Assembly: GCA_964036195.1 (NCBI GenBank)
Contig: OZ038455.1
Location: 12,355,855 to 12,419,854 of the forward strand
From: Sphaerolaimus hirsutus
Taxonomy: Eukaryota; Nematoda; Chromadorea; Monhysterida; Sphaerolaimidae
DNA length: 64,000 nucleotides
Direction of reading: 5' to 3'
Shown here: one piece after another, positions 1-40,900 of the stretch
Position numbering within the stretch: position 1 is the stretch's first letter
Layout: every line of letters starts with the position of its first letter
The notes under the pieces: model-generated
Told to the model about the DNA's origin: nothing
The model's database searches: none
Seen by the model: the letters and a program-made list of their open reading frames with translations, nothing else
Position numbers and translations under genes: made by a program

Positions 1-1124
1 GCACCACGTTCAAAACGCCTGGTGCTGGCACTTGGCGAATTTGTTCCTGGCGGCAATCGCCAAAACCGCCATGGCGCTTTTGTTGGGAATGGCGCCAAGC
101 GCCAATAGGGCCACAGCAAAAAAATGGCAAAATACCAAGCGCATAAGTACTAAAAATTTCAGCTGTTGTTTAAAAACAGTTTCGATAAAAAAACTGCATG
201 GATAAAAAACGTTTTAAAACGTGTTAAAAATGAAACTCCGGCCATAACATGCTCTGATATGTACATAATTAGGTACATGTATTTTTATAAATCACATTTA
301 CACATTTCCTTATGTTCTTTGCATCAAGCATTTTTAGTTCCTGCACAAAACGCGTGTCTAGTGATGGAATGGAATGCGCCATTGGCGCTTCACGCCTTTT
401 TCCAAAAAAAATTTGTTTTAAAATGAGTGCATAAAAATCCATCTTTAACTGAGAGTTGCTGAAGTAGACACATTCTTGTTGTACCACTTTATCAGATGTA
501 AATATCTGATGGATATTTATACTTATGCATTTATTTGGTGAGAATGAATATAAAGAGATGAATAATGGTGATATAAAGAGATGAAAAACGTACAACCAAA
601 ATATGTTTCATGGCGGAAACCATTTTGAAATGAAATCAGTTCAGTTTATTTTCTTTCACTTTCTCATTTGCCTGCTCCAAGAGTGCATATGAAATGGAAT
701 TATCAACAAAGTGAAGCCTATGTTGTGTAGCAACAGTTTGAACTCAGAAGTCACTGCACCCAAAACAAACACATTCCCTCCACAGTTGCCGGCTCCATGG
801 GCTTGGCCCTGCATCGCCGAGGTCCACAGGGTCATCTAAGTCAACTATCATTGTTGCTACACCGAACACTATCGCGCCATGGCGCATGGCGCCCATTTTC
901 CGGCGCCTTTCCACCGCTACTGCGTGTCCCAGCTGGCGTTGACAGCGGCACGCAACTTAACCGACCGCCGCGAGCAATCATTGCACGCATGCCGACTGAT
1001 GCGCAGTTTCAGATTAATCACCCCATCGCAGTCTTGCGGCCACTGGCGACCCGTCCGCGGGCAGGAATAAGCATCATAAAACCGCGCGCCTCCTTTGATG
1101 CGTTCGAAAAGTATCCGGACAGGG

Positions 1125-1535
1125 GACACTTCCGGACCCTGTAAAGTATAAAAGACCCTGTAAAGTGTAAAAGACCCTGTAAAGTGCCAAAGACCCTGTA
1201 AAGTGTCAAAGACCCTGTAAAGTGTCAAAGACCCTGTAAAATGTCAAGTGTCATGTAAAAGAAAGACACTGTAAAGTGTCAAATGTCATGTAAAAGTCCC
1301 TATAAAGTGTCATGTGTATCCAAATATTATCTTATCATATCCAAATATTAGTTATTGTATCCAAATCTTATGTTTTGTATCCAAATCTTATGTTTTGTGT
1401 CCAAATCTTATGTCAAAGAGTAAGACTGGGATACAAAAACAAGATTTGGATATACGTTTTACAAGGTATTTTACATAACACATGGCATTTTACATGGTCT
1501 TTTACACTTTACAGGGTCTTTTACGACGTCTGGGA
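1125..1535. repeat. CCGGACCCTGTAAAG foldback MITE region
   Basis: The left end reads CTTCCGGACCCTGTAAAG and is followed by about six tandem copies of a GACCCTGTAAAGTGTCAAA-type unit. The right side carries the inverse, TTTACACTTTACAGGGTC. A TCCAAATCTTATG-type tandem repeat sits in the middle (1320-1410). It belongs to the same family as the copies at 4127-4336, 6431-6600, about 18700-18735 and 39835-39900. Confidence 0.65.
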
Positions 1536-2521
1536 GTGGGGTTTAGCTATGAAAAAGAGTGTATTGTAAAGTATACTCGGTGGACCGTTAAGTATACTCG
1601 GCAAAGTATGTGCCCAAAATTTTTATTTTTATTTTTTTATTTTAAATATTTTTTTTATTTAAACAAAATTATTTTATTTTGAATCATAAAAATTGCATTA
1701 TTGGTTCGATATTCCATATTATTGTGTTTCGTTGTTTTGTAAATTTGTCACAATAATAAAGATGGAATCGTTCATTCACCCCAGAAAAACATTGCTTCAT
1801 CACTTTTTGAACATGCAAAAAGTAACATACTTTTTCAATTTCCTTTGATCCCCCTACCGCAGGTATGATAAATATGTATGATGATTAATTTCGAACTTTG
1901 CAATTCTTGTCTTGTGCAATTGTGCAATTCCTTACATTCTGTATTTCATGTACCTAATTTTTTTGTGATTGTACTTCATTGCAGAGTTGTTAAAATACTG
2001 GCATTTTTGGAAATCGTAAGTGTAAACATTTTGAGTAGGTTTTGCTTACGTTTCAATGAAAGAGTAAGTAAATAAATAATATGTTATTGGTAAAACAATA
2101 GAGCGGCAGCTTACAAATGAATGGTATTATACCTTCAATTAAGCGGCAGGTAAAAAAGTTCTTCTATTAGAACGACGCTCTTCTATTAGAAGAAATACTA
2201 TATGCATAAGAAAGGTATTTTGAAAACTAAGGAAAATGTAAAAAACATACGCGTAAAATTTTTTACGTGAAAGCTTAAGCATAAAAACGGCAAGAAGTTG
2301 TACTCTTTCCCAGTAAGCGTAACAAAGCGTAATTTATGGGTAGGTAAAACATAATACTGTATCAGCATTGCTGATTCAGCATAAAAAATAGTTTTCTGTA
2401 CTCCGATACTGTCAAAAAGTATAGTTAAGGTAGATAAAAGTGAATACAGGTACTTTCTGGCGGGAAATGTAAACACATTAACTTGGTAGTCAAGTATGCG
2501 TATATATCGATTTAATGTTAA

Positions 2522-3587: not shown

Positions 3588-3751
3588 TAATTAAATAATT
3601 TCGTGGGTTCACAAACGAACAGTTCAATTACCATGTTATGCCAGGAATATCGTACAAACACACACCGTTTACACAAAGAAATTGACTATTCGCAGATTAT
3701 AGTTATGGAATTTCAAAAATATTCTCTGTCATAATTAGAGTAATAGCCGGA

Positions 3752-6700
3752 ATGGAATACATCCACGATGTGCCCATTCTGGGCAAAACAATCATAGCAA
3801 TCATATTCGTTATTCTAATTTTACTAGCATCGTCTGGCAACTTATTAGTGTGCGCAGCTATATTTGTCGACAGGAAATTGCGGAATGGCAGCGAGAATTT
3901 GTTTTTGTTGTCGTTGGCAGTGTCCGATTTGTTGGTGTCGGTTTTGGTGATGATTTTCGCCGCCGTCAACGATCTCAGCGGCGAGTGGCATTTCGGCGCG
4001 GTGAGTTGAATTTTCAACGATGGTATTAATCGCGTATGTACACGTATATGTCAACCGTCAACACTTTGACGATTTTTGCATCCTGTGAGCGAAATAATTA
4101 TAAAAGAATAAATAAGGGTGTACAGTGGCAGTCCCAAGCCCTGTAAAGTGTAAAGTAAAATGTCAAATGTAAAGTCAAATGCAGAGTAAACTGTCAATTG
4201 TCATGCACTAAGTCAAAGCACGTCAAAGTTCGTTATAAAATCTTTTCTTTTTTTGTTTTGATTGACACTTTACTTTGCATTTGACTTTACTTTTGACCAT
4301 TCACTTTACACTTTACAGGGCTTGGGACTGCCCCCAGCTGTGCCTATATTTTTCTTGCCTATGAGGATGCTAAATAATTAAATAAAATGTAAATACCATG
4401 GTCCATGGATCATTACCATGGACCATTGGATTACCTTTTCACTGAACTATGTGCGAAAAACGCGCAAGTTAGCTTATTCTGTAAGCAAATGGTTCTTATC
4501 AAAATTGCTGAAAAATTGTTGAAAAAATCCATTTTCCCAAAACTGATCAAAGTAAAGTAAAGTAAAGTTATCAAGTAATCCACAGGTCTACTGCAAACTG
4601 TGGGTCGCCTTCGACATTATGTGCTGCACGGCGAGCATTTTGAATCTGTGCGCCATTTCCTTGGACAGATATTGGCACGTTTCCAGCCCAATGGCCTATA
4701 TCATGCATGTCAACAGAAAGCGGATTTGCTACGCAATTGCCCTAGTTTGGCTGCTCAGTGCCGGACTGGGATTCTCGCAGATTGCTTTAGGTTTTGATGA
4801 CAAAATGGTTGGTTCTATGGTTTGGTTCAACAACTGTTAGACAGATGAAATTTTTTTTGTGCAACTGCACTAGAAGAAGGAGAGTTACGTGACCACTGCT
4901 AGAAATGTAGAATTCGATTTGGGAAACGTTCTAGTGATGGCCCTGGCGCTGTTTTCTTTGGTGCTAGCGCCATGCGCCATGGCCATGGCGCTTTACATCA
5001 CATATCAACTGGCCATCACACGCCGGCCTTGCACTTTCTGTACACAAAAACTCGCCTTGAGGACACTTCATCGGTGACTTTTGGCAAGTAGCCAGCCGTA
5101 CCCGCGCAGCCGTCGAACGAGTGCGTCCTGCGGCTCGACCCCATATTCGCGACCGTGTCCAGCGCGTTGTCCTTCTTCTTACCGTGCATCGTGATGGTGA
5201 TCCTGTACACGAAGCTGTACCTGATCGCCAAGGCGCAAGCCAGGTCGATAAGAGCGCAACTGAAGGGTCTCACGGGTGGATTGTTGCTGGTGCACGCGGT
5301 CACCGGGCCAGGAGCCATGTGCGGGTGAGTGAGTGTAGATTTTGAGTTGACTATTCGATCGATTTTGTGATTTGTTGTCCTCTTTCTTGGTGAGCAGTTG
5401 TGGAATATTGGACGAGTGAATTCAAATTCTCAATTGATGTTGCTATATAGGTATCTTGAACGTTGCGGTTCGGCTTTGTAACTCGCCCCCTAGAAACCTA
5501 ATTACGAAGTTGATATAACAGTTAGAATTGAAAAATCATGTTTGCGGAGGATTATTTTTGAGCAAGAGTTTTGTTTAAAAAGAATGAGAAGATAATGAGT
5601 CGACAAATATTAATTTAGGTACTCAGAAATTCGTACCTATTATAATAATAACTTCATTGTGTCAAAAGATCAGCGCGATTGATTGCTTTTTAAAAGATTT
5701 CTTCAAAAAAATTCAAAACATTTGCGCCAATACTGTAGTACTCTCATCCTTTCAACCCCTGAAAACCAATACCTAACCCTCTCAATCTTCACCCTTACTG
5801 TCCCTTTGAATAACCCCTAAATGTCCAGCCGCTTATTACGTCTGTGCACCTGCAACATGTGTTTCCGGTGAGAAAAAGCGCGCACGTTCTTTTCATTTTT
5901 CACCAGATTTAAGGTTTATTAAAATGTTCACATTTGAAATGGCATGAGCCACCTTCAGACAGCATAATTTTGCATTTTGCTTTTTTCGGGTTAACAATGA
6001 GCCTGCTACTTTTTACATTTTGCACATTTTACGTTAATATTTTCTAATACATCTATTCAAATATTAGGTTCGAAAGAAAGTTCTTTCCAACTCCACCTGA
6101 AACAAAGTTCTAGAGTCGGAAAATACTTTATTTCTAACCTAAATATGTGTATTTTCTGATCATTCCGGTTGAGAAAGATGTCACGGAAGGCTTGAATCAA
6201 TGCGCACAGTGTGTTCGCTAAAATATTTGAGTATCCAAGCAGGTGTACGCATTCAAGCCTTTTGGTCAATTTCAATTCAAGAGCAACAAAACCCACTTTG
6301 CAAACACGACATACACCCGGACAGGTCGAGCGACACGTTGGCGAGCCAGGCGCCGAGCAACGGGCGCGCCACCAGCCTCCGATCCAACATCCGTTCGGCG
6401 CTGTTCAGACAGCAACAAAAGCGCACCCAGGTGCCACTCCCGGACCCTGTAAAATGCCCTGTAGAATGTCAACTGTCATGAAATGTTGCAAATTTCATGT
6501 AAAATGTGCATAAATGTAAAATGAGCACTTTACATGAGTTTCCTCACTTTGCATGACATTTGACATTTTCCAGGTCATTTCACAGGGTCCGGTAGTGCCT
6601 CCAGGAGAAAGAATCTGAGGCGAGCGAACACAAGGCCAGGGTCACTTTGGGCGTCATCATGGGCACCTTCCTACTCTGCTGGCTGCCCTTTTTCATCGTC

Positions 6701-9700
6701 AACGTGATCAGGGGCTACATGCCGCACCTGGTGCCCATCATCTGGTTCCAGTCGCTCACTTGGCTAGGTTATGCGAATTCAAGTGCGAATCCGGTCATCT
6801 ACTCGATTTTCAATAGAGACTTCAGGAGGGCTTTTAAGGCCATTTTGACAAGGTCGTGCGGCTGCTGCACCGGTCCCATTCATGGTGAGTACCTATTTTT
6901 GGTGGCAATCGGATTACCTATTATACTCCGGTTACTTTACACCCTGCACGCGTGGTTCCCGCTGGATGTGTGCCAACGATGGTTAACGCGTCCGAGTTTC
7001 ATAAAAAGATAATAAAATTGATTGTTGTTATAATGTGATTCATTAACATATTCACATCGATGGATTTTTTAAATCTTTTTACGGAAATCGCATGATCTAA
7101 TAATTATTGGCACGCTTCCAACACGAGACATAAATCAGTGCGAATGCAGAGTATCATGTACGCCGAGTATATAATTGTGATTTTGTCAAACCAAAATGAA
7201 ATAAGAACATGTAGCGAAAATCTGTCTAATAAGACAGCGGGAGCTTTTCACATTCTCCGGAGATGATAAAAAATCATTTTAGTGCCCGCGCCAGGTGCTT
7301 TCTGAGGGGCTTAATAGCCGTCGCTGTTTTAATCCCATAATTCAACTTCAATTGGAAGCTCTTCTTGTCCTGGCTGGCGATGCCTCAAGGGTATTCTAGC
7401 TTTTGATCCTCCTCCCTCCTCTAGCAATCTCACTTTTGATTTTACTCTTACATTTTCCTGGGTTAAAAATCGGAAAAAATACTTGCTTTTACGTTTCCCT
7501 GCGTTAAGAACTGATTTTTACGTTTACTCACCTTTTACACAGTGTAAAAGTAAAAAAAATTACTGTACGTTTTCTGTACTCAGGGTTCAGTAAAAATAAA
7601 ATACTTTGTTTACATTTACTTTGTAAAAAGTTCAGTGCTTTTAACAACTCTGTACTCAGCCGTTACCTCACAGCTGCCCAAGACAGACTGGGCGGGTTGC
7701 GCAACAGAGCCGAGCTGAATCACATAGCTGTGGGCAACGAGCACAATGCACCCAATGCTGACAACTGCAGCAGACAGCCGTCAGCCTGCTATGACCAAGT
7801 CGGTTGGGACACGTCAGTGCTGGCCACGGGCGTTTTTTCAACATTGTATTGCGATATATAGCGTTATAAAGTACAGCCACTGACTGGTATATCTGTATAG
7901 ATTGAGTCATGGCGCCGTGGTGCTATTGTTTCTGGCGCACAGAGCAGTTTTTTCTGATATCCCCATGGCGCCATTTCCTCTGGCGCCCGGCGACAACTTT
8001 TGTAAATAGCGCCATGGTGCCATTGGCACCTGCGCCATTATTCCTGGCGCTTTACCATCACTACTCATAACTATATTTAAGAGCTATTGAAAATAAACGT
8101 TTTTCTAAACCGGGACAAAAAAATTTTTCCATCCGTAACCCTTCTCAAGGTCCAAAATAAGATAACCCATGACCTGGCAAAAAGCAATCTGCAATCATTT
8201 AAAACATAGGCATTTACTTGGCTATCTGCCAACCCGTCTCGCAGGCGAGCACTTTGTTGCCCAGTTCGACGCACGCGAACAAGCACAACAAGGACACCGG
8301 CGCGACGATGGCGAACAACAACAACACGGCGCCGCCGTCCAGCGCCATGGACACCAGCGTCACGCCGCTCTTGCAGGAGCACAGGAAACACGAGCGCGAC
8401 CGATCAGGCTTTTCTGATGTGGATGATGGTGAGTAGTGGTGGAAAAGCGCCAGGATTTTGGCGCCTAGCGCCAGCGCCAGACGTTTTGTTCCAGGCATGG
8501 TGCTTTTCATTGGTGCGGCGTAGTGATGGAAAAGCGCCATGGCGCTGGCGCCTGGCGCTAGCGCCAAAGCAAAAAGCGCCATGGCGCTTTTGGCGCTTGG
8601 CGCCATTTCCTGTTGGCGCTATTGGCGCCTGGCGCTAGCATTTAAAATAGCGCCAAAAAAGCGCCAACCGTTATTATAAAATTCTTATAATTCAGTGAAA
8701 TTCAACAAACCAGTTGATCAATTTTGAGAATAACTGAATAAATATTGATAAATATAAGTGTGTAAGGGGACATTTGTATTAATTAAATATCGATTAGGTA
8801 CTTTTTGGGGTAAATGCATGTACCCTATTTCCTCGAAATCCCCCAGGGGGTTGATTATTTCAGAGTGCAAATTTTGAGCGGGGTATTTCGAGGGGTATTA
8901 TTTCGCCAGGAATTTTCGTATAGGATCGTGCAAAGAATGGGCATATACATACCCATAACTGGTAATAAACATGACTAGGTAAATGGGATACCCTACCATT
9001 TACGTTTACATTTACATACCCTACCTGGTATTTATATCCCTTGGGATTTTAATAATGTATGAAACATTGTAGTAGTTAATTGAACTTTACTGGCAAATAT
9101 CAAATCGACTACTACGACATCAGCGGTATGTCACAGTTACGAATTCGTTATTCTACAAACGAATTCCAGAACAAAATTTTTGGCGCTGGCGCTATTGGCG
9201 CTGAGGTTCAGAAAAGCGCCATGGCGCTTTTGGCGCTTGGCGCTATTTTGCTCTGGCGCCATTGGCGCTTGGCGCTGTGGGTCACAAAAGCGCCATGACG
9301 CTTTTGGCGCTTGGCGCCAAAAGTCTGGCGCTTTTTCCATCACTAGTGCGGCGTCAAACACGAATGGCGCCGCATAAAAATAGCGTGTTTGCGTTTTTTC
9401 CTTTGGTGCTTGTCCGTCACAAATGGTGAGCTCACAAATGACGCGGGAAGTCACTTTGCATAGAATAAAGGCACTGCCTAATATGAATTATTTTGACACG
9501 AAGCAGGCGATCGTGTTACATAGAACATTGGTTAGCATTAGAGTTGGTAAATTACGGTAATAGTTTAATATTTACCGCCGCAGGGCTGAATGCAAGAACA
9601 TGTCCGGAAGCAGAATCACAAAGGAAACACGATCATACTGAAATGCAGCGCTTGTCCAGCCACAGGCCCAGTGTTACAGAGGTCGACGCTTTGCTGCCAA

Positions 9701-10741
9701 ACGGGTCTAACAAATCCATAACAAATGTACAGCCGATCGCACAAAGCAATGGCAGCTTGCCAAATACGTGGGTTATAATTATTTACATATAACCAGCCTC
9801 AAAGTATGACTTGACCTCTTTAAACTTTTCTCTCATTGCAGCGGTAGAAAATCGCACCGCCGGCGGCCAAAGTCAATGCGCGAACGTTGGTGCTCCATGG
9901 CGCTGGCGCCAAGGGCCTGGCGCCGGCACAAGGGTGTAGATCACACACCCATATTGCAATCGGCAGATGTATCCAGCAGGCGCTATGATCAAGATTTTGA
10001 ACTCATGCACGGTAAATGCCAATCTTTTTAAAGTCAATGCCTCTTACGTCCACAGCAAAAAAATGGGTTCGTGAAGCGTGTGGAAGCAGGAACACGCTTC
10101 ACGAGAGTTTTGGTGAAGTATCATTCACACACTTCACATAGCTTCACGAAGCCCGAAATTTCGTGACTCAGTAAAACACTTAACAAATTGTGCAGCTTCG
10201 TTAAGCACGTCTGTGATGTGAAGTGTCTTCATACGTTAAATTTCGTGAAGTGCCGACCAGCTTCGTGAAGCGTCGGGAAGTGTCGCCGGGAAGACACTTC
10301 AAAACGCTTCACGACGCATCACACGACCATTTTTTGCTGTGGTCCACATTTGTCAACAACCAAACGAAATTTCCAGCGCACCGCGCGCGCGCCAACACGG
10401 CCACTGGCAGCGGCGCCATGCGCAGAAAACGGCACGTTAAAAGCGCCAGAAACACGCCAATCAAACACTGCGGTACGCCAAATTCGGCGCTTTCGTTCAC
10501 CAGCGGGGCGGAGTTTAGTTGCGATCGAACTCCGCCCCCTTCGCCGAGACACGTGGTCAGCTCTTTGGAACAGAGGCCCAGAGAAGCCATTGGTCGTGTC
10601 AGAAACGGTTGGATGCAATTTGACGAAAATTTGGATGCCCACGGGGGCAGCGGGGCTGTCAATGGATGTACAATGGTGCCCAGAGTGGATGTTCCGAGAA
10701 GGCACAGAAAGTCGGTGTCTTTGGAGAGATTAGGTGAGTAA
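3752..10741 (+). CDS. D1-like dopamine receptor (class A GPCR), 8 exons
   Basis: Exons by splice sites and phase: 3752-4000, 4586-4807 (donor tentative), 5110-5324, 6325-6430, 6605-6884, 9584-9767, 9842-10011, 10377-10733, then either a stop at 10739-10741 or further exons through a good GTGAGT donor. The model gives about 596 residues. Visible class A marks: N30 in TM1, D59 in TM2, C86, amine-binding D93 in TM3, DRY 110-112, ECL2 C162, TM5 serines S174, S175 and S178 before FFLP, CWLPFF 289-294 in TM6 and NPVIY 326-330 in TM7. The TM3 stretch [12 protein letters not shown] and the TM6 start VTLGVIMG fit the D1-like dopamine group, nearest to invertebrate Dop1R2/DOP2 types; an octopamine receptor is less likely. 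It would be a plasma-membrane receptor, inferred to couple to Gs or Gq. The C-terminal tail is long (about 240 residues) and poorly conserved, so its exons are less certain than the 7TM core. Confidence 0.88.
4127..4336. repeat. CCTGTAAAGTG foldback MITE in receptor intron 1
   Basis: The left end GGCAGTCCCAAGCCCTGTAA and the right end CTTTACAGGGCTTGGGACTG form a foldback with an AT-rich middle. It is a sister family to the 6431-6600 element. The flanks end in CAG on both sides. Confidence 0.75.
5325..6324 (+). other. dopamine receptor intron 3, no features seen
   Basis: This 1-kb intron lies between the TM5 exon and the ICL3 exon. I see AT-rich unique-looking sequence and no clear element or coding segment. 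Confidence 0.6.
6431..6604 (+). mobile_element. intron made of a MITE (introner-like)
   Basis: This 174-bp intron separates the ICL3 exon (ending ...KRTQ) from the TM6 exon (starting [10 protein letters not shown]) in phase 0. The MITE fills nearly all of it. The left TIR GTGCCACTCCCGGACCCTGT begins exactly at the donor GT. The right TIR GGGTCCGGTAGTGCC ends five bases before the exon, leaving CCAG as the acceptor. CCAG/CCAG at the two exon edges looks like a target duplication. Removing the intron restores an uninterrupted, conserved reading frame. Confidence 0.8.
6885..7650 (+). other. receptor intron 5, 5' part
   Basis: I see no exon here. From about 7435 to 7650 there is a diverged GTAAACGT/ACGTTTAC-rich repeat ending in TTTTAACAACTCTG, a family also present at 11760-11970, 26130-26575, 27180-27560 and 49845-50390. 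Confidence 0.5.
7668..7910 (-). pseudogene. possible LINE fragment with PHD-like cysteines
   Basis: An 80-codon open frame on the minus strand contains [13 protein letters not shown], a cysteine/histidine pattern resembling the PHD-type finger found in ORF1 or ORF2 leaders of some CR1/Jockey-like retroposons. There is no start context, reverse transcriptase or other domain nearby. It could equally be chance; no host function is claimed. Confidence 0.25.
7908..8070. repeat. GCGCCA-rich foldback fragment
   Basis: Repeated GCGCCATGG / TGGCGC blocks end in GGCGCTTTACCATCACTA, the right terminus shared with the hAT element at 8521-9345. No matching 8-bp duplication was found, so the copy is probably truncated. 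Confidence 0.5.
8245..8428 (+). CDS. candidate alternative C-tail exon of the receptor
   Basis: This GC-rich block is bounded by CTCGCAG and by ATG|GTGAGT. All three forward frames are open or nearly so. In the phase dictated by exon 5 it reads to a stop at 8415-8417, giving an alternative glutamine/histidine-rich C terminus. In another frame it reads a serine/threonine/asparagine-rich tail with a poly-Asn run. The reverse strand (8218-8410) also reads an open, hydrophobic frame with its own plausible splice sites, so strand and frame are not settled. Exon 5 joins exon 9584-9767 in phase without it. Confidence 0.35.
8521..9345. mobile_element. hAT-type non-autonomous element, TSD gtgcggcg
   Basis: It begins TAGTGATGGAAAAGCGCC and ends GGCGCTTTTTCCATCACTA, flanked by identical 8-bp GTGCGGCG at 8513-8520 and 9346-9353. 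The arms are GCGCCATGGCGC-rich palindromes. The AT-rich centre holds a fragment of the CCTCGAAATACC foldback family (about 8819-8900). There is no transposase frame. It lies in receptor intron 5. Confidence 0.85.
10053..10339. repeat. GTGAAGC-rich MITE in receptor intron 7
   Basis: The ends CAGCAAAAAAATGG and CCATTTTTTGCTG are inverted. The inside is dense in GTGAAGC/GCTTCAC. The right end lies only 37 bp before the acceptor of receptor exon 8. Confidence 0.65.
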
Positions 10742-11227
10742 GGTTGAAATTGATTTGATCGCATAAAAATGGCATTGGCAGCGAGGGGTGCGCCTGCGCA
10801 CACGCGCGGTATACCGTATATCCAGGAATATAACCCAGGGGTGTTATTTTTTGAACTTTTAGATTTAGATTTTTGAATGGGGAGTTACTCAAGGGGGGTA
10901 TTATTCGAGGATATGCGGTAGACTGAAAACTCGTTGAGATCATTGCCGATATTTCATGCTCAAAAAGTAAGACGCTACCAAACCTAACACCCTACCCAGA
11001 TTTGGAATCAGCGATGGTGCTCACTACAAAATATCCCGTCAAGTCTTGCCATGATAAAATATACGACTGCAGCGATGCTTTTGAAATTGTCGCTACTGTT
11101 TGACAAAACAAGGACGTATCTAGAGGGGGTGTACCCACAAGGGGGCCGCCAACGCCAATTTCTATGGCGCCATGGCACGGCGCATACGAATGGCGCCAGC
11201 GCCATGTCACCATTACGTACTAGAGCG

Positions 11228-12729: not shown

Positions 12730-13431
12730 CATTTTATAATTGTACCGAATGAAGTCGGCAGCGCAGAGTGGCACACCATCGAAATTTGGGAAACTATTGA
12801 ATTTGTTTTGATCACATTTGAGTTTACCAGAATGAGGAGTCTATCAATAAAACAATGCGTGGCCAGTGTTTCAAAAAATCGTTTTCCATGTTCGCCATGT
12901 GTTTGTATCGTCTGTTCAAATACTCATTGTGGCCACGCCCACTACTAAACCACAAGTTTGGGAAACTCATAAATCAGTTTTGAGCACATTTAGGTTTACC
13001 CAAATTGATTATTTTTGATCGCCACCAACAGTAGTTCACAGGAACCTCATTGTGGAAAACTCAAATGTGTTCAAAACTGTTTTGTGAGTTTCCCAAATTT
13101 CGGTGGTGTACTAGTTTCCACAGCGCCATTGAGGGAGTCTGAAGGACTGAAACTCTAAACAAAATGGAATTATGAAGAAAGACGGTGCATCACATTTTTC
13201 TCTGGTAACCAATACACAACGAAGTGCATGTATGGCCCTGCGCACACTAGTTTTCTCACGAAATTTCGAAGCTATTAAATGAGCTTTAAACGTGTTTGAG
13301 TTTTCCACAATGAGTCATTTTTAATCTCCGTCAACTGAAGTTGACGACCACCTAATTGTAGAAAACTCAAATGCGTTCTAAGCTGATTTGTGAGTTTTCG
13401 AAATTTCGTGTGAAAACTAGTGTGTGCAGGC
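12730..13431. repeat. cluster of related long-hairpin MITEs
   Basis: The best-preserved copy is 13236-13431, with ends CCTGCGCACACTAGTTTTC and GAAAACTAGTGTGTGCAGG and arms continuing through CGAAATTTCG and TTTGAGTTTTC. Earlier diverged copies share CCCAAATTTCG and TTTGAGTTT blocks. The termini resemble the CACTAGTTGAC MITEs elsewhere in the window. Confidence 0.6.
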
Positions 13432-14002
13432 ACATTATAACGATAAGGAGTAGCTTTTACGGAAAACACATTTGTCTAATACACGGTCAATCATTACGCT
13501 CAATACGCAACAAACACTGGTTTTAAAAAAGCAGTAAGAAAAGAAAATAAAAGAAAGAAAAAACGCGGAAGAATGGTTACATAGCAAGGAACTTAGGGGC
13601 CAACAAATAAATAAACACAAGAATCTCAAATGCGGGACACAAATGTGATAGAATTTTGCAGCACACGACAATCACACAGCCGAGATTTCACCCATAAGGA
13701 GCAAATTTGATGGCTATCATTAGACATCCTAGATAGAATCGTGATGTCGCCTTATCTGGGGCCCTGTAATTGTTCATATGACTGATTTTGTGGTTAAACG
13801 AATGTAGATAATTTAAAATTAAATCAATCTGAGATAAATATATCGAATACAGGACCAAACGAGAATTTTTGTGTCAACTCAGACCCAAAAACGATGACAA
13901 CTGCTGGAAAAGATTGCCAGCAGCGTCAGCGTAAATTCCAACAATACCCGGAAAAAACCCGGCTCAGTGTTATTTCGCTCTACATAGGAATTTTGCAACT
14001 AC

Positions 14003-17200: not shown

Positions 17201-20200
17201 CCCAAAACAAGTTCATCACCCAACTGCATTTAAAAAATGTTGCAACAACATACCTAATATAAAACTGAATTGGCTTGGAACACTATTTCAGCCAAAAAAA
17301 TTTGGCCCTGTCTCATAAACAGTAGAATGAAAATTTCACTTTGAACCATTTTTTTGTTTCACACTTACAAAGTTGGTTTACAAAGTTCACTAGAGAATGG
17401 TCTAAGGTTCAAAGTTATGTAAACAACATAACCTCTAAAATGCCTCCATAAGGAAATTTACTTGGGGTGAATTATATGTTGTCAAAGTGATGTCATTTCA
17501 GGAACAAAATTTGACAAAATTTTCACTTTTTCATTCACCCCAAATAAATTTCCTTATGGAACCATTTTAGAGGTTATGTTGTTTACATAACTTTGAACCT
17601 TAGACCCTCCCCTAGTGAACTTTGTAAACCAACTTTTTAAGTGTGATACAAAAAATTGGTTAAAAGTGAAATTTTCAGTCTGCTGTTTATAGGACAGGGT
17701 GGGTGCCCTACTGAATAAATTTTAATAAGCAGAACTAGGGTTCAAATCTAATTCAATTTTATATCAGGTATGTTCTCACAACATTTTTTTATAATGCAGT
17801 TGGGTGGTGAACTTGTTCGGGACACTTGGGCTGTTCTTAAAAAAATTACCAACTTTATATGCAGTGACCCATGCTTTAGTGGGTCGTCGGCAGCCGCCCC
17901 ACTGGGGTATTGTGGGGGGGGGGGGGTTGTTGGCAAGACATCCCCCAAATTTCAGCTTTCTACCGCCCTCACAGCTGGAGATATAGCTTTCAAAGTGTAG
18001 CTAATCAAGTGGGTGGTGAACTTGCTTGGGACACCTAAAACGCCACAAAAAATTGTTACATATAGGGCGACCCACCCTGTAGTCAGTCGCCGCACCTCCC
18101 CCCATTGTTAGGGAGTAAGGGGGTCTTGCAACTTTATATATACAAAGTTTCAGCCTTATAACACCCTCATGGACGGGGATATTGCATTCGAAGTGAAATA
18201 AAAAAATGGGTGGTGAACTTGTCCGGGAAGGTGTTTATTTGAAACTTGCTCGCGTATCAGCACAAAGAATTTCAACGTCAATTACGACCATAGAAATCAA
18301 ATCTGCAATTTATCCCCGTATCAGAGTGACAATAGCAAACCACAGAGCCACACCTTTTTAATCAACTTTTGCAAATCCTCCTTACTGAAAGCTTCATCGG
18401 CAGCGTCCAAATGAGCTATGTGTTTCTCAATTTCAACCGGATTTCCCCCTTGAGCTTCCAGTTCCATTTCGCGCTGCACAACTTGTCTCAGACGATCGAT
18501 TTCTTTCAATTTCGCTTCATTTAATCTACTCCGGATGTCCGGGTTCACTTCGTCTAGATGGTGCGCTATGTCCCCGCGCTGTGTTTGGGAAGGGGGTAAG
18601 GATGAGTGAAAATATGTGTAACACAGGGGTTTACCTAGTAAGGGGTTTACCCCCCCCCCCAAATCCGCCAGCTATCTATCTATCCCGCAGGTGTTTTACA
18701 CGTGCAATTTTACAGGGTCTGGGACTGCCCCTAGTATGATAAAGATGAAAAAATTGCTTAAAGGACTAGGAATTCCTTTAAAACCCCTGAAATGCTTGCA
18801 ACCGGTGCGATTTGAATAGGCCAAAACGCTGACCTTGATCTGCTCCTCGTTCATGTTTCGCATTTTCTCTTGAAAATCATCGTCAGACTCCAATGCCTTG
18901 ACAACTTCTTGCAAATATCGCTCATACGCCAAATTGAGCATCTGAAAAAAATTGACAGAATTCTTCTATTATTCTATAACATTGAGCACGGTGATTTTAT
19001 TGAGACAACACAACTGTTGTATGAAAGGTCGCAAGTTCAAATCGAGCATCGCGATTTTTGAATAAACAATAGACATAGGCGTAAAAAAGTTGATGCTTTC
19101 AAATACATATACCGCATTGTATTACCTCGAATTACAACCCCCCCCCCCCCGTCGAAATACCCCACATCTGAGCGACCTGAGTAGGGTTGGAAAAAAATCA
19201 ATTTTTGTTAAACGCCTTGATTTTAAAAAAATCAATTTTTTAAAATTAAAATCAGATTTTTTTTAAATCGCCCAAAATGGGGGTATAGAGAAAAAATATA
19301 TGTATGTTAAGTGTCAGACAATGTATTGTTATGTCTATTGTGATCATATTATGACTGTGGAGTCATGGAATAGCATTATAAGCAGTGATTTCTTTCAAAA
19401 ATATCCATTTTACGTCGACTTATTACGTATATCGCCTTTTGTTGAATGTTCGTGACTTCAAGTGAAGTTCAGCATGTAATAGAGCTTTAATAAGGTTGTA
19501 AGAGAAGGCTAATACAATAACAGTGATGTTACACACTGTAGAAGTATGTGGGAGCACATTGGTTTGATATTATATACTACACTAGCATATCACGGCTTAT
19601 TATTACATGGTAACATGAATAAATGGAAGATTTTACAGTAAAAATGCCCCAAAACCCATGAAAACACCACAAATGGTAATATTTATGAGAAATTGCGCGC
19701 TTGCGCGCAAAAAAAATGCAAATACCTAGTGCGAGTCTAACAGAGCGAGCCACCCTGCCCCCCCCCTGGATACATCCTTGAGTACCAGTTCTTTGTGATG
19801 TTAAATATAGCCATAGAATGGCTGTGGAGCAATGGGATAGCATCATAAGTGGTGATTTCTGTCAAAAATATCCATTTTTATGTCGACTCATTATGCATAT
19901 CACCTTTTATCTAATGTTTGTGACTCAAGAGAAGTTTGGCATGGAATAGATCTTAAATAAGGTTGTAAGAGAAGGCTGAATTGAAACATCACTCACACTG
20001 TAGAAGTATGTGGGAGCACATTGCCTGGATATTATATACCACAGCTTATTATCATGCAATCGCATGAACAAATGGAAGATTTTTCACTAAAAATGCTTCT
20101 AAGACCAATGAAAACAACCACCAATGGTAATGTGCATGTGAAATTGTGCGCTTGTGTGCAAAAATTGCAAAATACATAGTGCATAAGTACTAAAATTTTG

Positions 20201-25999: not shown

Positions 26000-28900
26000 A
26001 TGCCAATAATCGTTGAGAGGGTCGCTTCGAAGGACAGTGGAAATTGGAGTCCGAATTCTTTCGACAATGGGAATCGCCTGCTGGAGTTAAAAGTGAGCCT
26101 GCACAAAAATCCAGATTTGTTCAAAGTACTGAACGTTTTCAAAGTAAACGTAAAGTATTTATTTTTTACTCACCGCTGAATACAGAAAACGTAAAGTAAA
26201 TTTTTTAACTGTTACTCGTGAGTAAACGTGAGTACATTACTTTTCCCCGGAAAAGTGATTATTTTTCAAATTTTTTGTCCAAATTCTCGCTCAAAATCAC
26301 TAATTTCCAAACTTTAGTATTTACCCTCAGAATCACTAGTTGATGTGTTTTAGCCTATTTTTTAAGCTATTTTGGATATTTTTTCTCATTTTTGGCTTTT
26401 TTCTCTTTTGCCTTTTATGCCTTGAAAAAGAAATACGTTTTCTGTACTCGCGTACTTTCGAAAAGTACGCGAGTAAGTGAGTACCGATATTTTTCGGGAA
26501 GAAACGTAAACGTAGTCACGCAGTCCTCGAGTATACGTATTTATCGAGTAAACGTAAATACGCTTCATCAACTATGTAAAAATCATGCACAATGCGTCAC
26601 GCCAACCGCCATAATTACCCTTCTCACCCGCAGCAAAATCTCTCGCCGCGCCAGTCGTTCATGTCGGAAAGTTCGGACGACCAGGAATGGCCGCCGCTAA
26701 CGGCGATCACTTGCAACGAACTGGAATTGACTCCGCCCCCTGTGGCGCTGGCCCCTGCACCAATAGATTTGGCACCGAGCCAAGCTTCGACGGCATCCAA
26801 TCGAGTGCCGAGTTTGCCGCCGGTGGCTGAGGAGTTGACGAGCGGATGGAGTAGCAGGGAGGAGGGCAGGAGTTATGCCAGGGCTCTTTGCGGTTTGCCC
26901 CCGGTGCCGAATGGACCTACGGTCGGTTTGGAGAAGCTGCGTGGTATTAGGGTTGTTAGATTCCGGAAAAATACATAGTAATCGTTGGGTGTGTAGTTGC
27001 GCGCTTGCGCGCAAAAATTTTTTAGAAGTGCTTACAAAATCGCTTTAGAAAAGTGCCATTTCTGGCAAATTTTTATGTCCGGCCCGGGAACGGGGGGGGG
27101 CGGCCGCCCCCCCCGCCCCCCCCCCCTCGCCCCCCTGCGTACGTCCTTGGTGCAGAAAACATTAAGTAATATTGTTCACTTTGACCCTGTAAAAGATGAG
27201 TAAACGTGAGAAAACCCTTTATTTTTACTCATGGGAAGCGGGTATTTTCGATTTTGTAGCCAAGAAAACATAAAAGTGAGTAAATGTAAAAGTGAGCGTT
27301 TCCCGCTGTCGCTGAGCCATCATTATTTCGATCATTTTATTTCGCTGCCATTTTCGCAGCCGTTTCAATTCTTAGAGGTTTTTGTGCACCTCATAAATTT
27401 TTCTGAATTTGTGTACTTACGTACTTTCAAAAAGTACGCGTAAAGATGAGTATATATTTCTTCCGAAGTTAACGCAAACACATTTACTGGGAACTCGAGT
27501 ATAATGTATTCGTCGCGTAAACGTAAATACGTTTTGACGAATACGTGGCGCAACACAATCGCTTTTGCGTAAATAGATGTGTGCATGTCCGAAAAGCGAT
27601 TTTGTTGTGGCCGTGGTTGTCAATATCAACCCACTTCCCAGACCGGAGGGGCGCCTCTATCGCCGCGTCTGCCGCCGGGCGCGCACATGCCGCCCGCGTC
27701 GCTGCTCGTCAGCCCGGGCAGGGGCAGGGCGAACAGGACCATGTCCGAGGCGGACACGCCCAACTCGGAGAGGGCCGCCGGCGTGTCGCTCCGGACTAGG
27801 TGAGGATTGGGGGTGGGGTTGTTTTGTGTTACATTTTATGTACCCACTCGCGTGTCTGAGTTGATCGATGATTGCGTTGAATTTTTTCCGGGAGATATAT
27901 ATATATATATTTTAAATTTTAAATATCAGAAAATATTAGAAGAATCTTATTTATTTTTACAGTTTTTTCCCCAGAGAGATAGATTATATTTATGAGAATA
28001 AAATATAAAAATTTATATTTCCGTATATTTGACCTGTTTTTTTCCCAGAGAAATTTAATTATGTTTTAGTAATTTTTTTCTTTTTAAGAGATTTTCTTGG
28101 TTATATTTTCTCAAAATCACAGATAGTCGACTGGTACACCGGGACGTTCGAACGTTCTTGATTCCGCGTTCTGAATTGCATTTTCCAAAAAAAAACCCTG
28201 CGAATAACCCATCACCCATCTATCAAACTGATCCCCAATCTCAGGGCCCGCTCATTCAATCGTTCAGTGGTCATGAAATGGCGCACGGTGGCGGCCAAAG
28301 CGCGATCCCTGGAAGACCCCTGGCTGAAGTACCGCATCGACGAAGAGCAGGTGGAGGAGTGCACCCGGTACCGGTACAACGCGCTGCACCAGAAGTGGAC
28401 CACCGATGTGGTGCTGGTCAAGGTGCAGAAGGAGGTGTGTGCGGGCTGGATTTTGAGTGATGTTTTTGTTGTGTGTGTTTTTTTTACGGGGAGCTTTTCA
28501 ATTTCTCAAATTTGGGTGTGTGGGTGTGTCTATCTTTAGGACTTTGTTGGGCAAGATATAATCGGTTGACCGCGAAGTATGCGTCCAAAATTACTTAAGT
28601 TCTAGTCGATAACATGCCAGCAGGTGTGTATGCACTTATGTATGCACTTTCGCAAAGGCGGAGTGGCGTAACAGCGACTACTGTTTTTCCTGAAAAATGT
28701 TTTTTATTAAACCCCGTTTACACGGATTTTTTGTGACGACTCGACAACACTAAAAAGTTCAATAAGTTGAGTAAAAAGGTTCCATTTTCATGATAAAAAG
28801 TGGTCAACTGTACATTCTACCTAGGCGAATATGCATGTCAAATTGCAGAATCGTACTTGTAGCTCAAGATTGTAAACGTTTGGAAAAAGATTACCATTGG

Positions 28901-31900
28901 CGCCGGCGGTCGGACAGTCTCCCGGTTCATGATAAAAAGTGGTCAACTGTACATTCTGTACAGTTGACCACTTTTTATCATGAAAATGGAACCTTTTTAC
29001 TCAACTTATTGAACTTTTTAGTGTTGTCGAGTCGTCACAAAAAATCCGTGTAAACGGGGCCTTATTATTAATAATGACGTCATGATGGCGTGTTTCCTTC
29101 AGAAAAATGCTTAGTATGCGGTCCGCGGAGTATAGCACAACAATTTGTCGGTTTGATTTCTGGGGGTGTACATTTCTAGTTATCTAGTTTCTATTTGCAA
29201 CACAAATGTATTCAAAACTATCTCCTATCAATCACAGTCGTTCGCCCGCGGCGCAATGCGCCAGTGCTTCCGCATGAAAAAACTGTCCACGTTCTCCATC
29301 AGCAAAAGTTGGGACAATGCCAAGAATTTCGTCGCCAAAAGCTACCTTGACAATGTTGGTCGATCCTTTCCAAGAATTAAAAAAACGAATGCAATAAATT
29401 CGAGTAATGTCCAGGTTCCACGGGAAACGATGTACGAAGATGTCAAGCTGCAAATGGATGCGAAACTGTGGGGGGAGGAGTACAGCCGACACAATCCACC
29501 CAAGAAGGTCGACTTTGCGCAAATGTGCGTGCTGGAGTTCGCTAATCGACCGGGCAAGCCCCTGTTTCATTGCGAGAACTTCATCGACGGCGAGTATGTG
29601 AAATGGAATTCTAATTCGGGATTCGTGTCCGAGCTGGTCAGGCAGACGCCGCATGTTCGTTTGGGCGGTGCTTGTTTTTCGGTGCTTGAATAATTGCCCC
29701 CCCCCATGTGAGATCCGATGAGTGATGCAAAATTATTCCCCCCGAATAGGCATGCGATAAGTTTGATAGATCAAATGAGTTGACATAAAATCATTGAAAA
29801 TTTTGGCTAAATGATAATTCCCCCTTTATTTATTCCTCCCTCTGAATACCCCCCCCCGCCCCCTCCCCCTCAAAAATTCGGACGAAAAAACAATCCCCCG
29901 TTCAATTTTCCGAGCAAATACTATATATTTTAGTCAATCTAAGTAACGAGACCATTTCTTAATAGAAATCAACTTCTAACCAACCTGCCCCCCCAACAAT
30001 TCGCAGGCATTTTCGCACTTTACATTCGAGCGTTCCGGCCACGCCCTGATCATAGTGGACATCCAGGGGGTGGGCGATCTTTACACGGACCCCCAAATCC
30101 ACACCGCCGACGGCAAGGGCTACGGAGATGGAAATTTGGGCACCAGGGGCATGGCGCTGTTTTTCCACTCGCACATTTGCAACGACATTTGTCGCAGTCT
30201 CAGTTTGAGCCCGTTCGATCTGGCGCCCAGCGAACGGGCGGGACAGAAGGATTTCATCAAGAGAACCGTTGGTTTGGGGTGGTCGTTTTGAAGGTTTGAG
30301 GATGTTTCAAATGAAATTGTGTATGATCCTGATTCCGATTTGAGGTAGGCTAATTTGATTGAGTAATGGGTCCACACACGCTAGTTGACATTCCGAATTC
30401 GTGTCAACTAAATCCCTGCCAATGTCAACTAACTAACACAAAAAATTTGAAAGCATCACATTTAACAGAAACAATGAAAATTAGTGTCATGGTGTAAAAT
30501 ATACTATGCTCTATCAGATAATAAAAGTGGGTGCACATAATTCATTAAAATTCACAGCGCTTCGAATCCGCCTCCGCAATGCGTTGCGACCGGGTCGAGC
30601 CGTGCATCTCTCTGTCGGGCACGGGCCGCTTCGACTCGGCCGACTTCGACGCCACGGCCGCGCTCCGCGTGCGCACCATCAGCAGCATGAGCACTAGCGC
30701 AGATGATTTGGTGGATGCTGTTATTGGAGGGGTGCATCATGGATCGGGAGCTTGTCTTGGTTGGTTGGGGGGTTGATTGAGGGTGTGGGGTTGGGGTGGG
30801 GGGGGGTTTGAGTGATGAAGGTTCGTGCTTCTTCGCGTTCATGCACAATAGTTCTACACACTAGTTGACATCGCCGCCAATTGTCAATTGGTTCTCATCT
30901 CAATTCAATGATTGCTGACAAGTAATATTATTGCACATTATTTTTACAAACTTTGAATTGGGATCGGAACCAGTTGACATTTGGTGGCGATTTAAACTGG
31001 TGTGTGTGGCGCCAAAGCGACAGGAAAAAGTATTCGCAGAATCATAGCCGTAGTCGATTGTTTGTCGTCGTTTTTTTTTGTGACACGCGCTCGCCGTTCG
31101 GTGGCGCTGCAAAGTTTATGCCTTTTGCGCATTATTTTTTGTATGTTTGTCTCGCATGTTTTTTTTTGTAATTTTGAGCGTTGCGTGATGTGCAGTCCGC
31201 GCAAATTACGGTATCTCAGTCTAATTTTGGCGACAAAAAAACTGATGCCATGCACTAATGTCATTTATCAGCGATTGATCGCTATAAAATGGGCTCGGAC
31301 AGACACACAAGGTCTGTTATCAGACGATCTTTACAGTGGGTTTATCTATCACACTGTACAGGAAATTTTTCAATGGTGTTTTCAATTTGCCGATTGGATG
31401 GAATTGCCTAATTTGAATTGCAAAAAAGCCATCTGTGGAGTGTTCGATGTGCAGTGGCGTAGCCGGAGGGGGGGGGGGTGAATAGAAATGTAAGGAAATG
31501 TGTTCTCGTGCAATTTTCAATTTTTTTGGGGTCAATTATCAAAAATTTCGCTGTCGATGTAGTATACGCTTTAAAGATAGCGTTTTAAATTACATAAAAT
31601 GTAAAGTTTGAAAGCAATAGTGTCTAAAAATAGAGCAAAATCCGAGTTCACCCGGCGCAATTTTGATATTTGAAAGTTTACAACGTAAATATCAATGTTA
31701 TCAAATAGTCCGGTTTCCTCTATACCGCACCTGTCTGGGTTGCCCTGAAAACACGCCAGTGTCACATTTACGCTGTACACCTACCTATCCCGTGCACTTA
31801 TTGCACTGTAAAAATGTCTACTGCGCGTATATTTGTGAATTTTTGGGTGATTGTGTAATGTTGTGATTTGTGACGTACGCGTTCTCTGTTCATATTTGGG

Positions 31901-37900: not shown

Positions 37901-40900
37901 AAAACCTCCCCACTGTAGGAGGACGAACGCGAAGCCTACTGGGTGGCGGTGCGCAAAAAAACCCGGCCCTCCTGCCTACCCCCTCTGGACATGGAAGCTC
38001 TGCAGCAGTTAGAGTCCGTGTACAGGGAGAAACACGGCGCGGCCACCCCCTCGCCGCAGGGGTCGCCCGCTAAAAAGCCCACTTTGATTGTGCCCCCCGA
38101 GCTGGCCGAGGTGGCCCCCATTCTGGCCGGGGCGAATAGTGTGCTGGGGCAGGTGGGTGGGGGCTTTTTTGGTGGGTGGTTTTGGGCCCGCACGCAGTAG
38201 TTGACATCAAGATTCGTGTCAACTGAATGTCAAATAAAACACAAAAAATTAAAAGCCTCTCATTTAACAAAAAAAAGGAAATTGAGTGTCGCGATATGAA
38301 AGTTACCATGCTCTTTCAGATAGGAAAATTGAAATCACATAATTAACCAAAATTTAGTCGACACTAATTTTAATGTCCACTAGTGTGTGTGGGCACGCTC
38401 AGGCGGGCGCCATGGGTGCGCTAACAAAATTATTTGAAATAAGTTCATTTAGTTTTGGGTGTCTTTATTTTGTTGCTTATTGGATATTATTAGTTGGCGT
38501 TTTTGCCACGGTAAGCAATAAAAACTGAATTGTGTCGTTTAAATAGTATTCATACCAGACACAACACCTTTGCTTGGTCTGATTACATTGATCGTTTTTT
38601 TATTGATCATTGATATGTACATTATTCTTCCATAATTGGGGTGGGGGGACCATTCAAGTGGGGGAATTATTTTTCTCTAAACGTCTAACAGGGGGGAATT
38701 ATCCGAGTAAATACGGTATTCGTAATTGTTGATTTCGACGCAATTCTCTCACCCACGAAGTAGTGAAATTGTTTAAATTCCTGGATTTACGTTTTACGTT
38801 GCCGGATGTCAGTTTGTCAGTTGTCGCCAGTGGTTAATTAAACGAAATCTTTGTGTCAAAATGTGCGTAACGTCTACGTGCGTGTCAAACGATACGTGAC
38901 CGAAACTAGTGTTGTTGAAATTCTATAAACATAATCGACCGCCTTTGATACTTTACGCTCGTCTGTGTATTGACGCGTGCATCTGCGTTTTGCTGTACCT
39001 GTCGGTGCCATCTCGCGCACACAAAACGTAAATACTTTGTCTAGGTGCAGTTGCGCGCGTACTCACGTCTCTGGGTACTGGGTACTGGGTACTCACTCGA
39101 GCTTCCAGTTTTTTTCTGGAAGTACTCGTGGGTTTTTTACGTTTTGTTGATATTTTGGAGTGCTGAGGGTGGTGTATTATCCGTTGGTGTAATTACAAAG
39201 TATTTAAGTATTTATATACACACCTGCTTACATTGGGATGTGTTTACTTGCAATTATTTACAAAGCGCACGTATCTATGATTACTAAGCACCCCAATTCT
39301 AACAGTAAACAGCAACAACTGTTTCATTTCTCAATTGTTGAGGGGGTTTATTTGCATCTCAAACGCTGTATCGATGTTTGCAGAAAGCGCGCGGAACATT
39401 TATTCTAAATTCGAACGTGTGGCATAAATGCGAAATTTCACTGTTGGAATAAATTCCGTGTAACGGGGGATGAATGAAGGGGGTCTTGTCAAATAAATTG
39501 AATTGTATTGTAAAATATTCGAAATGGAAGCTGGAATCGCGTGAAGATGCTAGGTACACATAATTTTTGAGTTTTCCGTCCGAGCTTTTTTGGACTCGGA
39601 ACTGCAAGTGCAGGCATGATAAATCTACCGAACAGGCGCCTGTTTAAGCACGAAAAGTTAGGCTTTCAATTGAATTGCATATAAATAGGACTGGAAATTA
39701 CCTACAAATTTTCGCGATGGGCCAATAATTAAAATTTTCGAGAAATTCAAACCCCACGTTCGCCAAGCTCCGTATACAACCCCCCCCCCCCCCCGCTCGC
39801 AAACTTTGTTTGCCATTTTACAGAGCATTTTACATCACTTTTGACAAGTTGCATGATATTTTACATTTTTAACGGCACTTTACAGGGTCTGGGAGTGCAC
39901 CCTGGTTTGAAATATTGCGGCCGTATTTCCACGTCACACTACCTGTATTAACTAGTGAATTCGAAACCCATTTTTCATTGGAGCGTAATAAATTGGTTTT
40001 GTGAAAAATTCGCCTACCTATTCAAAGCATTTTACCTGCCTACGTGCAGCAAAAATGCGCAAAATTGTAAAGTGTTTTTGTGTGTCACGGGAACGTCGAA
40101 AGCTACACGTTGATAGAAATCGTAAAATCGTAAACAAGTCAATTATTGATTGTGGGTGCTGTTTTGCACTTGATTTTGTGTATTTTGATGGGGTTGGTGC
40201 AAATAAAGCATTTTTACCGTCTACAAAGGTAGTATATCTGACCGTCACTGGGGTTGATAAAAATCGGTTGTTAGGTTTCCCGATTTGAAAAAATAAAATA
40301 CCGTATTTTCTCGAAATACCCCCCTCGAAATACCCCCCCCCCCCCTCAAAATGGGCACTATGAATTTATAACCCCCCCTCGAAATACCCCCCCCCCCAAT
40401 TTAGTGTAAGAACGTACATGACAAAAGGTGTGGTTTGTGATCGGGGCAGTGCAGAACACAGTGAAAACCAACGACTGTGTTCCATGAGGACAGTGTTTAT
40501 ACCGTCAACATAGATATAAACATACAAGTATATAGCGTCATAAACATGGCTGTTTTTGTTGCATTTTTCAACGTCTGCGTACGTTTCAGACGACAATTTT
40601 GTACTGGGATTTCAAAAAATTTCTGGCGAAATAATAACCCCCCCCCCTCGAAATAGATTGTCAAATTGATAGATCGATGGAATAGATGCGATTTTTTCAA
40701 ATCTGACTTTTTCAAGAAATCGTTAAAAAAATCACTTGTCAACCCTGACCGTCGATTATCTCTTTGATAAATTTTTTCCCTGCGTTTGTCGAACTAAAAG
40801 TCATTTTCTCAATTGCTTTCTTTTGTTTGCACTCGTATTTTACAGTGCGCGCTGATCAAGATCCAGGTGGGGAGCCCCGCATCAAAATTGGGAAAATGTT

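Follow-up and report, generated by a model that had tools for sequence, protein, structure and literature searches.

The origin of a coding intron in a receptor gene

How does a coding intron come to consist, save for its last three bases, of a transposable element? The origin of introns is an old open question, and for bursts of intron gain introners are the strongest candidates. The question is raised here by a receptor gene in a stretch of 64,000 nucleotides from the nematode Sphaerolaimus hirsutus (the window; C7:12355855-12419854 within a 348-Mb genome of 762 contigs). The gene is, judged from relatives of known structure, an aminergic GPCR, because its best solved relatives in a PDB search are the beta-1 adrenergic receptor and then the 5-HT1A and D2 receptors. 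The features in and around the intron are:

6326..6430, + strand: upstream coding exon, encoding intracellular loop 3 of the aminergic GPCR, open frame with a phase 0 join to the next exon (start read by eye)
6428..6430, + strand: left CAG of a 3-bp target duplication, on the exon side of the predicted 5' splice site (alignment of copies)
6431..6604, + strand: predicted intron, GT...AG, made up of the element and the right CAG (sequence; family behaviour)
6431..6601, + strand: MITE/introner element with terminal inverted repeats GTGCCACTCCCGGACCC... and ...GGGTCCGGTAGTGCCTC, with about 82% identity to the consensus of the family
6602..6604, + strand: right CAG of the target duplication and predicted 3' splice site (alignment of copies; sequence)
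6605..6884, + strand: downstream coding exon, transmembrane helices 6-7, matching aminergic GPCRs in the PDB (end read by eye)

The intron comprises 174 nt and reads AAGCGCACCCAG|GTGCCACTCCCG ... TAGTGCCTCCAG|GAGAAAGAATCT, where bars mark the predicted splice junctions; its first bases are GTGCCACTCCCGG and its last bases TAGTGCCTCCAG, and the exon edges are CGC ACC CAG upstream and GAG AAA GAA downstream. Every one of its three frames contains stop codons, and the flanking exons join in phase 0 into an open frame, as a first-pass annotation of this DNA had proposed. The same annotation had taken the gene to be a dopamine receptor, for which the broader name aminergic GPCR is used here, and the intron to be a MITE. 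The latter holds from end to end, in that 171 bp of element (6431-6601) are followed directly by the duplicated CAG as predicted acceptor. The inverted-repeat arms (6427-6511 and 6521-6605) are 76% complementary, and the predicted fold of the intron has -75.3 kcal/mol as compared to a mean of -36.0 for shuffled sequences (z = -11). The exact splice bases are inferred from the behaviour of the family described below. An inner donor, CCT|GTAAAA, also lies within the receptor element; its use would keep six element codons in the mRNA, which is possible in this gene given its variable loop.

A family of elements with sharp ends and a CNG target

Using the intron as DNA query yielded 2,734 candidates, and the 40 of these that were scored gave 81 matches; these fall at about 40 loci, most of which match on both strands. 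From 39 fetched loci 50 copies with both ends were obtained (set 1); they were selected by similarity to the window intron extended by 6 bp into either exon, a choice that may bias this set towards CAG. These copies are 142-221 bp long, with a family consensus of 177 bp, a median pairwise identity of 85%, long inverted repeats and common sharp ends, GTGCCA[C/G]TCCCAGACCCTGTAAAATG and CATTTTACAGGGTCTGGGA[C/G]TGCCCC (in the aligned copies GTGCCA[C/G]TCCC and GGGA[C/G]TGCCCC). Genome-wide, 4,169 sites match the 27-base donor end at one mismatch or less, compared to 0 for a reversed-pattern control, which is far more than chance would give. The main difference between the left end and the inverted right end is GTGCC in place of GGGGC, so that one element end was presumably adapted to serve as donor.

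The triplets flanking the 50 copies are CAG/CAG in 20, CTG/CTG in 11 and other combinations in 19, i.e. the same triplet stands on either side of 31 copies, and the target of the element, as read from these flanks, is CNG with a 3-bp duplication. The family has ends of the GGGGCASTCCCAGACCC type together with this 3-bp CNG duplication. Its elements are short, have terminal inverted repeats and reach a high copy number, as expected of MITEs, and a target-site duplication is evident both from the 31 identical triplet pairs and from an empty site of a sister element (see below).

The alignment of copies confirms that the element terminus, at the sharp common end, coincides with the predicted donor, and revises the first-pass annotation at the opposite side. 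There the inverted repeat had been thought to end five bases short of the acceptor and adjoins CAG directly; the duplication had been given as CCAG and comprises 3 bp (CAG), as the C preceding the right-hand triplet is the last base of the element itself, and a 4-bp duplication is thus rejected.

Some of the 4-kb loci (L011, L037, L031 and L019) hold two or three element copies. The OSCP1 gene of L011 has two introners and the sugar transporter of L037 at least two, and one copy in L037 is placed at CCG. A copy in L045 (near 2003-2401) stands directly next to an AAGCCC sister-subfamily element, the two sharing one CTG.

Related copies in the window and an empty site

The window contains further relatives of the element:

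4123..4125, + strand: left CAG of a sister element (sequence)
4126..4334, + strand: sister MITE ending ...CCCAAGCCC, inside a larger intron of the receptor gene, missing from the duplicate gene, where one CAG is found
4335..4337, + strand: right CAG of the sister element (empty-site comparison; sequence)
1120..1542, no strand assigned: degenerate relative with internal tandem repeats, CAG on the left only, outside any recognised exon
18694..18731, + strand: fragment with an acceptor-type end only, adjoining TAG
39810..39901, no strand assigned: half element adjoining CAG when read on the minus strand

The earlier statement that other copies also abut CAG is therefore correct for 4126-4334, on both sides, and, in the minus-strand reading, for the half element at 39810-39901; for 1120-1542 it is correct on the left side only. 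Repeats of other kinds are present in the window as well: short palindromic GGCGCCATGGCGC-like repeats cluster around an exon-like stretch at 7900-9400, at 12758-13435 inverted repeats of a different family (AAATTTGGGAAACTC) are nested in one another and may represent a second MITE, and at 28712-29059 there is a perfect inverted repeat with arms of 103 bp, separated by 142 bp, which is either a recent element or an assembly artefact.

The receptor gene is present a second time 66 kb downstream (L009; C7:12424500-12434400), in a region that matches window positions 3643-11227, with 97% and 95% identity across two pieces around the intron. Its exons are near-identical, the intergenic DNA is rearranged, and the receptor intron is common to both genes. 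Over five exon stretches the two differ at 15 nt and in 1 residue without any stop (1 synonymous difference in exon 6326..6430, 4 in exon 6605..6884), whereas their receptor introns differ by a 50-bp indel, a contrast in favour of the intron reading. L009 may be either a tandem duplicate or an unpurged haplotype. At the sister element the window reads GTACAG[element]CAGCTGTGCC and L009 reads GTACAGCTGTGCC with a single CAG, and because this empty site is exact, the sister element, by this comparison, duplicates CAG upon insertion. The empty site and the family copies support the proposal of the first-pass annotation that GT is supplied by the element and the acceptor AG by the duplicated site.

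Insertions within conserved coding domains

Do other copies interrupt coding sequences in the same manner? The flanks of each copy were joined after removal of the element and one triplet, and open frames spanning the junction were scanned with Pfam. For set 1 the scan covered 50 copies and 129 frames on both strands; the frame and class counts given below are without the near-identical duplicates L030 (twice) and L046 and without the poorly matching row of L017 near 2472, and L043 had no passing copy. Set 2 consists of 60 perfect donor ends, consecutive on contig C1 except for two already sampled, of which 54 had a right end and 6 had none; 49 remained after removal of the near-duplicates L058, L077, L078, L082 and L090. 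Set 3 consists of 40 copies on C1 with CTG on the left, 37 with a right end and 3 without, and only sense frames were scanned, leaving out five listed copies at 16.4-17.4 Mb and the third frames of L111, L131 and L134. Junction-spanning matches, ten in set 1 and five in set 2, were found as follows:

Set 1, L009, duplicate receptor: 7tm_1, CAG/CAG, sense
Set 1, L011: OSCP1 twice, CAG/CAG and CTG/CTG, sense
Set 1, L020: HNOBA, CAG/CAG, sense
Set 1, L023: PAN_1, CAG/CAG, sense
Set 1, L035: BLTP1_N (weak), CAG/CAG, sense
Set 1, L040: Myb, CAG/CAG, sense
Set 1, L029, muscarinic receptor: 7tm_1, CTG/CTG, sense
Set 1, L032: 7tm_1, CTG/CTG, sense
Set 1, L037: Sugar_tr, CTG/CTG, sense
Set 2, L067: CHGN, CTG/CAG, sense
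Set 2, L079: AA_permease, CTG/CAG, sense
Set 2, L095, SLC23: Xan_ur_permease, CTG/CTG, sense
Set 2, L094, BCKDHA: E1_dh, CTG/CTG, sense
Set 2, L093, GPCR fragment: 7TM_GPCR_Srx (weak; a family typical of nematodes), CTG/CTG, sense
Set 3, L123: Cyclin_N, CTG/CAG, sense
Set 3, L128: Abhydro_lipase, CTG/CAG, sense
Set 3, L129: AMP-binding, CTG/CAG, sense
Set 3, L127: Calpain_III, CTG/CTG, sense

All 19 matches across the junction are in sense orientation, and 12 of them exceed the curated Pfam cut-off; L032, L035, L079, L093, L094, L127 and L129 are below it. The stretch of L029 ran into a neighbouring antisense piece (a pasting artefact) and its match was confirmed when it was scanned alone, and a 7tm_1 match in L141 begins just past the junction and was left out of the count. 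The antisense frames of set 2 contained no junction-spanning Pfam match, and for sets 1 and 2 together, where both strands were scanned, 15 sense stand against 0 antisense matches (p = 6e-5). The matched stretch has the length expected from the profile to within 2 residues in 15 of the 19 matches, the exceptions being L029, which runs into the pasted neighbour, L035 (+5), L037 (+8) and L129 (-19). Moreover, the peptides of BCKDHA (L094) and of the muscarinic receptor (L029) align to 2bff_A and 6ol9_A, respectively, without a gap at the junction. Use of the inner donor CCT|GTAAAA as a general rule, which would add six residues, was considered and is rejected, as the domain length fits exact removal in these 15 matches.

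Tests that rely on open frames or codon usage were more ambiguous. With a threshold of 35 aa or more to either side of the junction, open frames were present in 29 of 47 copies of set 1. Joins shifted by 1 or 2 nt gave 17 and 17, antisense frames 16, and mismatched flanks 21.6 on average (maximum 28 of 300), so that the result for this set was clear. Set 2, which is unbiased, had corresponding figures of 28 of 49, 26 and 26, 22, and a mean of 25.0 (maximum 31), which gives no clear support. A codon model assigned 17 sense and 1 antisense among the confidently scored loci outside its training set; on its own training loci it placed both flanks on the same strand and in the same frame in only 7 of 14. 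In L019 an antisense copy lies within an apparent coding frame, for the peptides of which Pfam gave no domain support and a PDB search was equally unhelpful. This antisense copy, the sub-cut-off scores of seven matches and the unclear open-frame result in set 2 count against the introner reading.

Introners are distinguished by similarity that runs to both intron edges, found here in the 50 sharp-ended copies and the 19 exact domain junctions, and by a sense-strand frame that is restored upon removal, as seen in the 19 sense matches. A genome search for copies that coincide with introns had been suggested by the first-pass annotation, and it revealed family copies that occupy precisely the gaps within conserved coding domains, with GT at the 5' edge, which strengthens its introner reading. 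By these measures the family behaves as an introner, drawing GT from the element and the acceptor from the duplicated target.

CAG and CTG targets

The first-pass annotation had missed the second major target triplet: 972 (45%) of the 2,152 exact donor ends that follow CAG or CTG sit at CTG, and the remaining 1,180 at CAG. Exact acceptor ends precede CAG in 1,270 and CTG in 778 cases, an enrichment of CAG on the acceptor side with an odds ratio of 1.34 (p = 3e-6) between donor and acceptor sets that are unmatched copy by copy, the acceptor counts possibly including relatives of the family. Domain support by class is 6 of 37 for CAG/CAG, 8 of 45 for CTG/CTG and 5 of 18 for CTG/CAG, the first two rates being indistinguishable (Fisher p = 1), and the median identity to the consensus is 86.8% for CAG/CAG and 86.4% for CTG/CTG.

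A CAG target would yield a GT-AG intron and a CTG target a GT-TG intron. In the eight CTG/CTG copies within coding domains TG would end the removed sequence, and as TG is a rare acceptor, the equal domain support of the two classes can also be held against the introner reading. CTG/CTG copies lie in domains as often as CAG/CAG copies and are not nearer to the consensus, however, which is most simply explained if TG acceptors also function here, as reported for Micromonas IE-B and IE-D (PMC3879977).

Where the two triplets differ, the right one is mostly CAG. If only single copies from sets 1 and 2 are counted, 16 have another triplet on the left and CAG on the right (CTG 8, CCG 5, TAG 2, CGG 1) and 2 have CAG on the left and another CNG on the right (p = 0.001), a difference that is not significant (16 to 7, p = 0.09) if five more CAG-left copies with an off-register right triplet are included. 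In set 3 a right-hand CAG is present in 10 of the 37 copies with CTG on the left. In L041, presumably the PIKfyve gene (Pfam gave a weak Cpn60_TCP1 match only), the left triplet is CTG, the right end is now CCCCAG and the frame is kept. Because of the excess of CAG on the right, its genome-wide enrichment at acceptors and the case of L041, insertions at non-CAG targets seem to drift to AG acceptors with time.

Mechanism and alternatives

How could an insertion become an intron in one step? The sequence evidence comprises sharp ends, a 3-bp duplication, a very high copy number, domain-supported insertions in sense orientation only and restoration of the frame. With these in mind, the receptor intron very probably arose when a non-autonomous DNA transposon, an introner of the MITE type, inserted into an exonic CAG. 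Briefly, a putative transposase would join the element to a staggered cut of which 3 bp are duplicated, giving exon-CAG|GTGCC...GCCCC-CAG|exon. The left CAG and the first GTG of the element would form the 5' splice site and the duplicated CAG the 3' splice site, so that removal from GT to the second CAG would bring back the old reading frame without adding anything to the mRNA, and the spliceosome is predicted to remove the element at exactly these bases. CAG|GTG pairs with U1 over six bases; as a donor, GTGCCA fits the consensus weakly, which is a point against this mechanism. Insertions at CTG would be removed likewise through a TG acceptor, with a later change to CAG being favoured. Whether one family indeed gives rise to GT-AG and GT-TG introns that the host removes alike, with hundreds of GT-TG introns slowly turning into GT-AG introns as A replaces T in the acceptor, and the acceptor being set by target triplet and hairpin and not strictly by AG, we consider an evenly balanced question.

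The most serious competitor concerns the CTG class, which might be recent gene-breaking or polymorphic insertions that are not spliced, leaving as introns only copies at CAG or those changed from CTG to CAG. Mismatched triplets with CTG or CCG on the left and CAG on the right, and the genome-wide odds ratio for CAG at acceptors, look as if AG were needed; however, CTG/CTG copies interrupt OSCP1, the muscarinic receptor, BCKDHA, SLC23 and the sugar transporter at the CAG/CAG rate, they are no closer to the consensus, and GT-TG introners are known from Micromonas (PMC3879977), so that we judge this possible though rather unlikely. Still less probable is an excision guided by the hairpin and largely independent of dinucleotides, as in Amoebophrya introners. 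Such a route would accommodate the very stable fold, the tolerance of CTG and the 3-bp direct repeat across both junctions, which resembles that described for Amoebophrya (PMC7789003), but the hairpin is equal in both orientations and the domain-supported copies are all sense.

The orientation bias bears equally on somatic removal of DNA in the manner of internal eliminated sequences, with the assembly representing germline DNA: that a single triplet copy is left, whichever base stands in its middle, would suit this idea, but DNA excision would ignore orientation where 15 sense and 0 antisense matches were found, and we regard it as the least credible alternative. Finally, the MITE could have entered a pre-existing short intron the old ends of which were lost, making the coincidence of element and splice sites secondary. 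Related elements do lie inside larger introns (4126-4334 and the OSCP1 intron in L011), yet 19 junctions in unrelated genes are restored exactly with no leftover intron sequence, and this origin is very improbable. Insertion of the introner into an exon, the preferred reading, offers a simple rule, with a CNG target that already represents a proto-splice site. Should the CTG class be spliced, the family would form a natural series of matched introns one acceptor base apart, with later repair visible, in which it could be tested genome-wide how far 3' splice sites require AG.

Comparison with known systems

The host genome includes a mitochondrial contig (C762, L150; 19% G+C) with COX1 in which TGA is read as Trp and AGA/AGG as Ser. 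An ATP6-like frame follows COX1 directly, ND1- and ND2-like frames lie on the other strand (names assigned by eye), the gene order is rearranged, and a tRNA scan of this locus was uninformative. We take the AGA/AGG positions in COX1 to be conserved serines, which fits protostomes; in tunicate mitochondria AGA/AGG do not encode serine, unlike in this genome.

Introners with inverted repeats and target duplications have been described in algae and other protists; among animals, just two groups were found to have introners in a survey of 3,325 genomes (Gozashti et al., 2022; PMC9860276). The closest likeness is the introner of Chrysochromulina, also a non-autonomous DNA element inserting into exons, in which, as proposed for the present family, the element supplies the 5' splice site and the duplication provides the 3' one; it differs in that a 4-bp duplication and no inverted repeats were found (PMC9860276), whereas the present family has a 3-bp CNG duplication, long inverted repeats and an animal host. 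In the alga Micromonas the repeated introns IE-B and IE-D, with 25 and 6 members (PMC3879977), have GT-TG ends, as is predicted here for copies at CTG; these form GT-TG classes, whereas in S. hirsutus a single family is predicted to give GT-TG or GT-AG introns depending on the target triplet. Amoebophrya introners share inverted repeats and direct repeats (3-5 nt) at the exon-intron edges with the present family; their splice dinucleotides vary at both ends (PMC7789003), whereas here GT is nearly constant and the 3' triplet alone varies, a result that depends in part on how copies were selected, the GT-bearing end having been included in the search patterns. Larvacean tunicates such as Fritillaria are likewise animals with many introns outside the GT-AG rule (here GT-TG, as predicted), and the dinucleotides reported for them are AG-A(N), unlike here (PMC7789003; PMC13326754). 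No earlier report of an animal CNG-target introner family like this one was found in the literature searched, in which the host may have been surveyed before; a sandfly paper mentions introners in its reference list only. Introners as such, some GT-TG introners and introners in two animal groups were already known; new here are an animal host with a protostome-type mitochondrial code, the CNG target, and a single family divided between GT-AG and, apparently, GT-TG introns.
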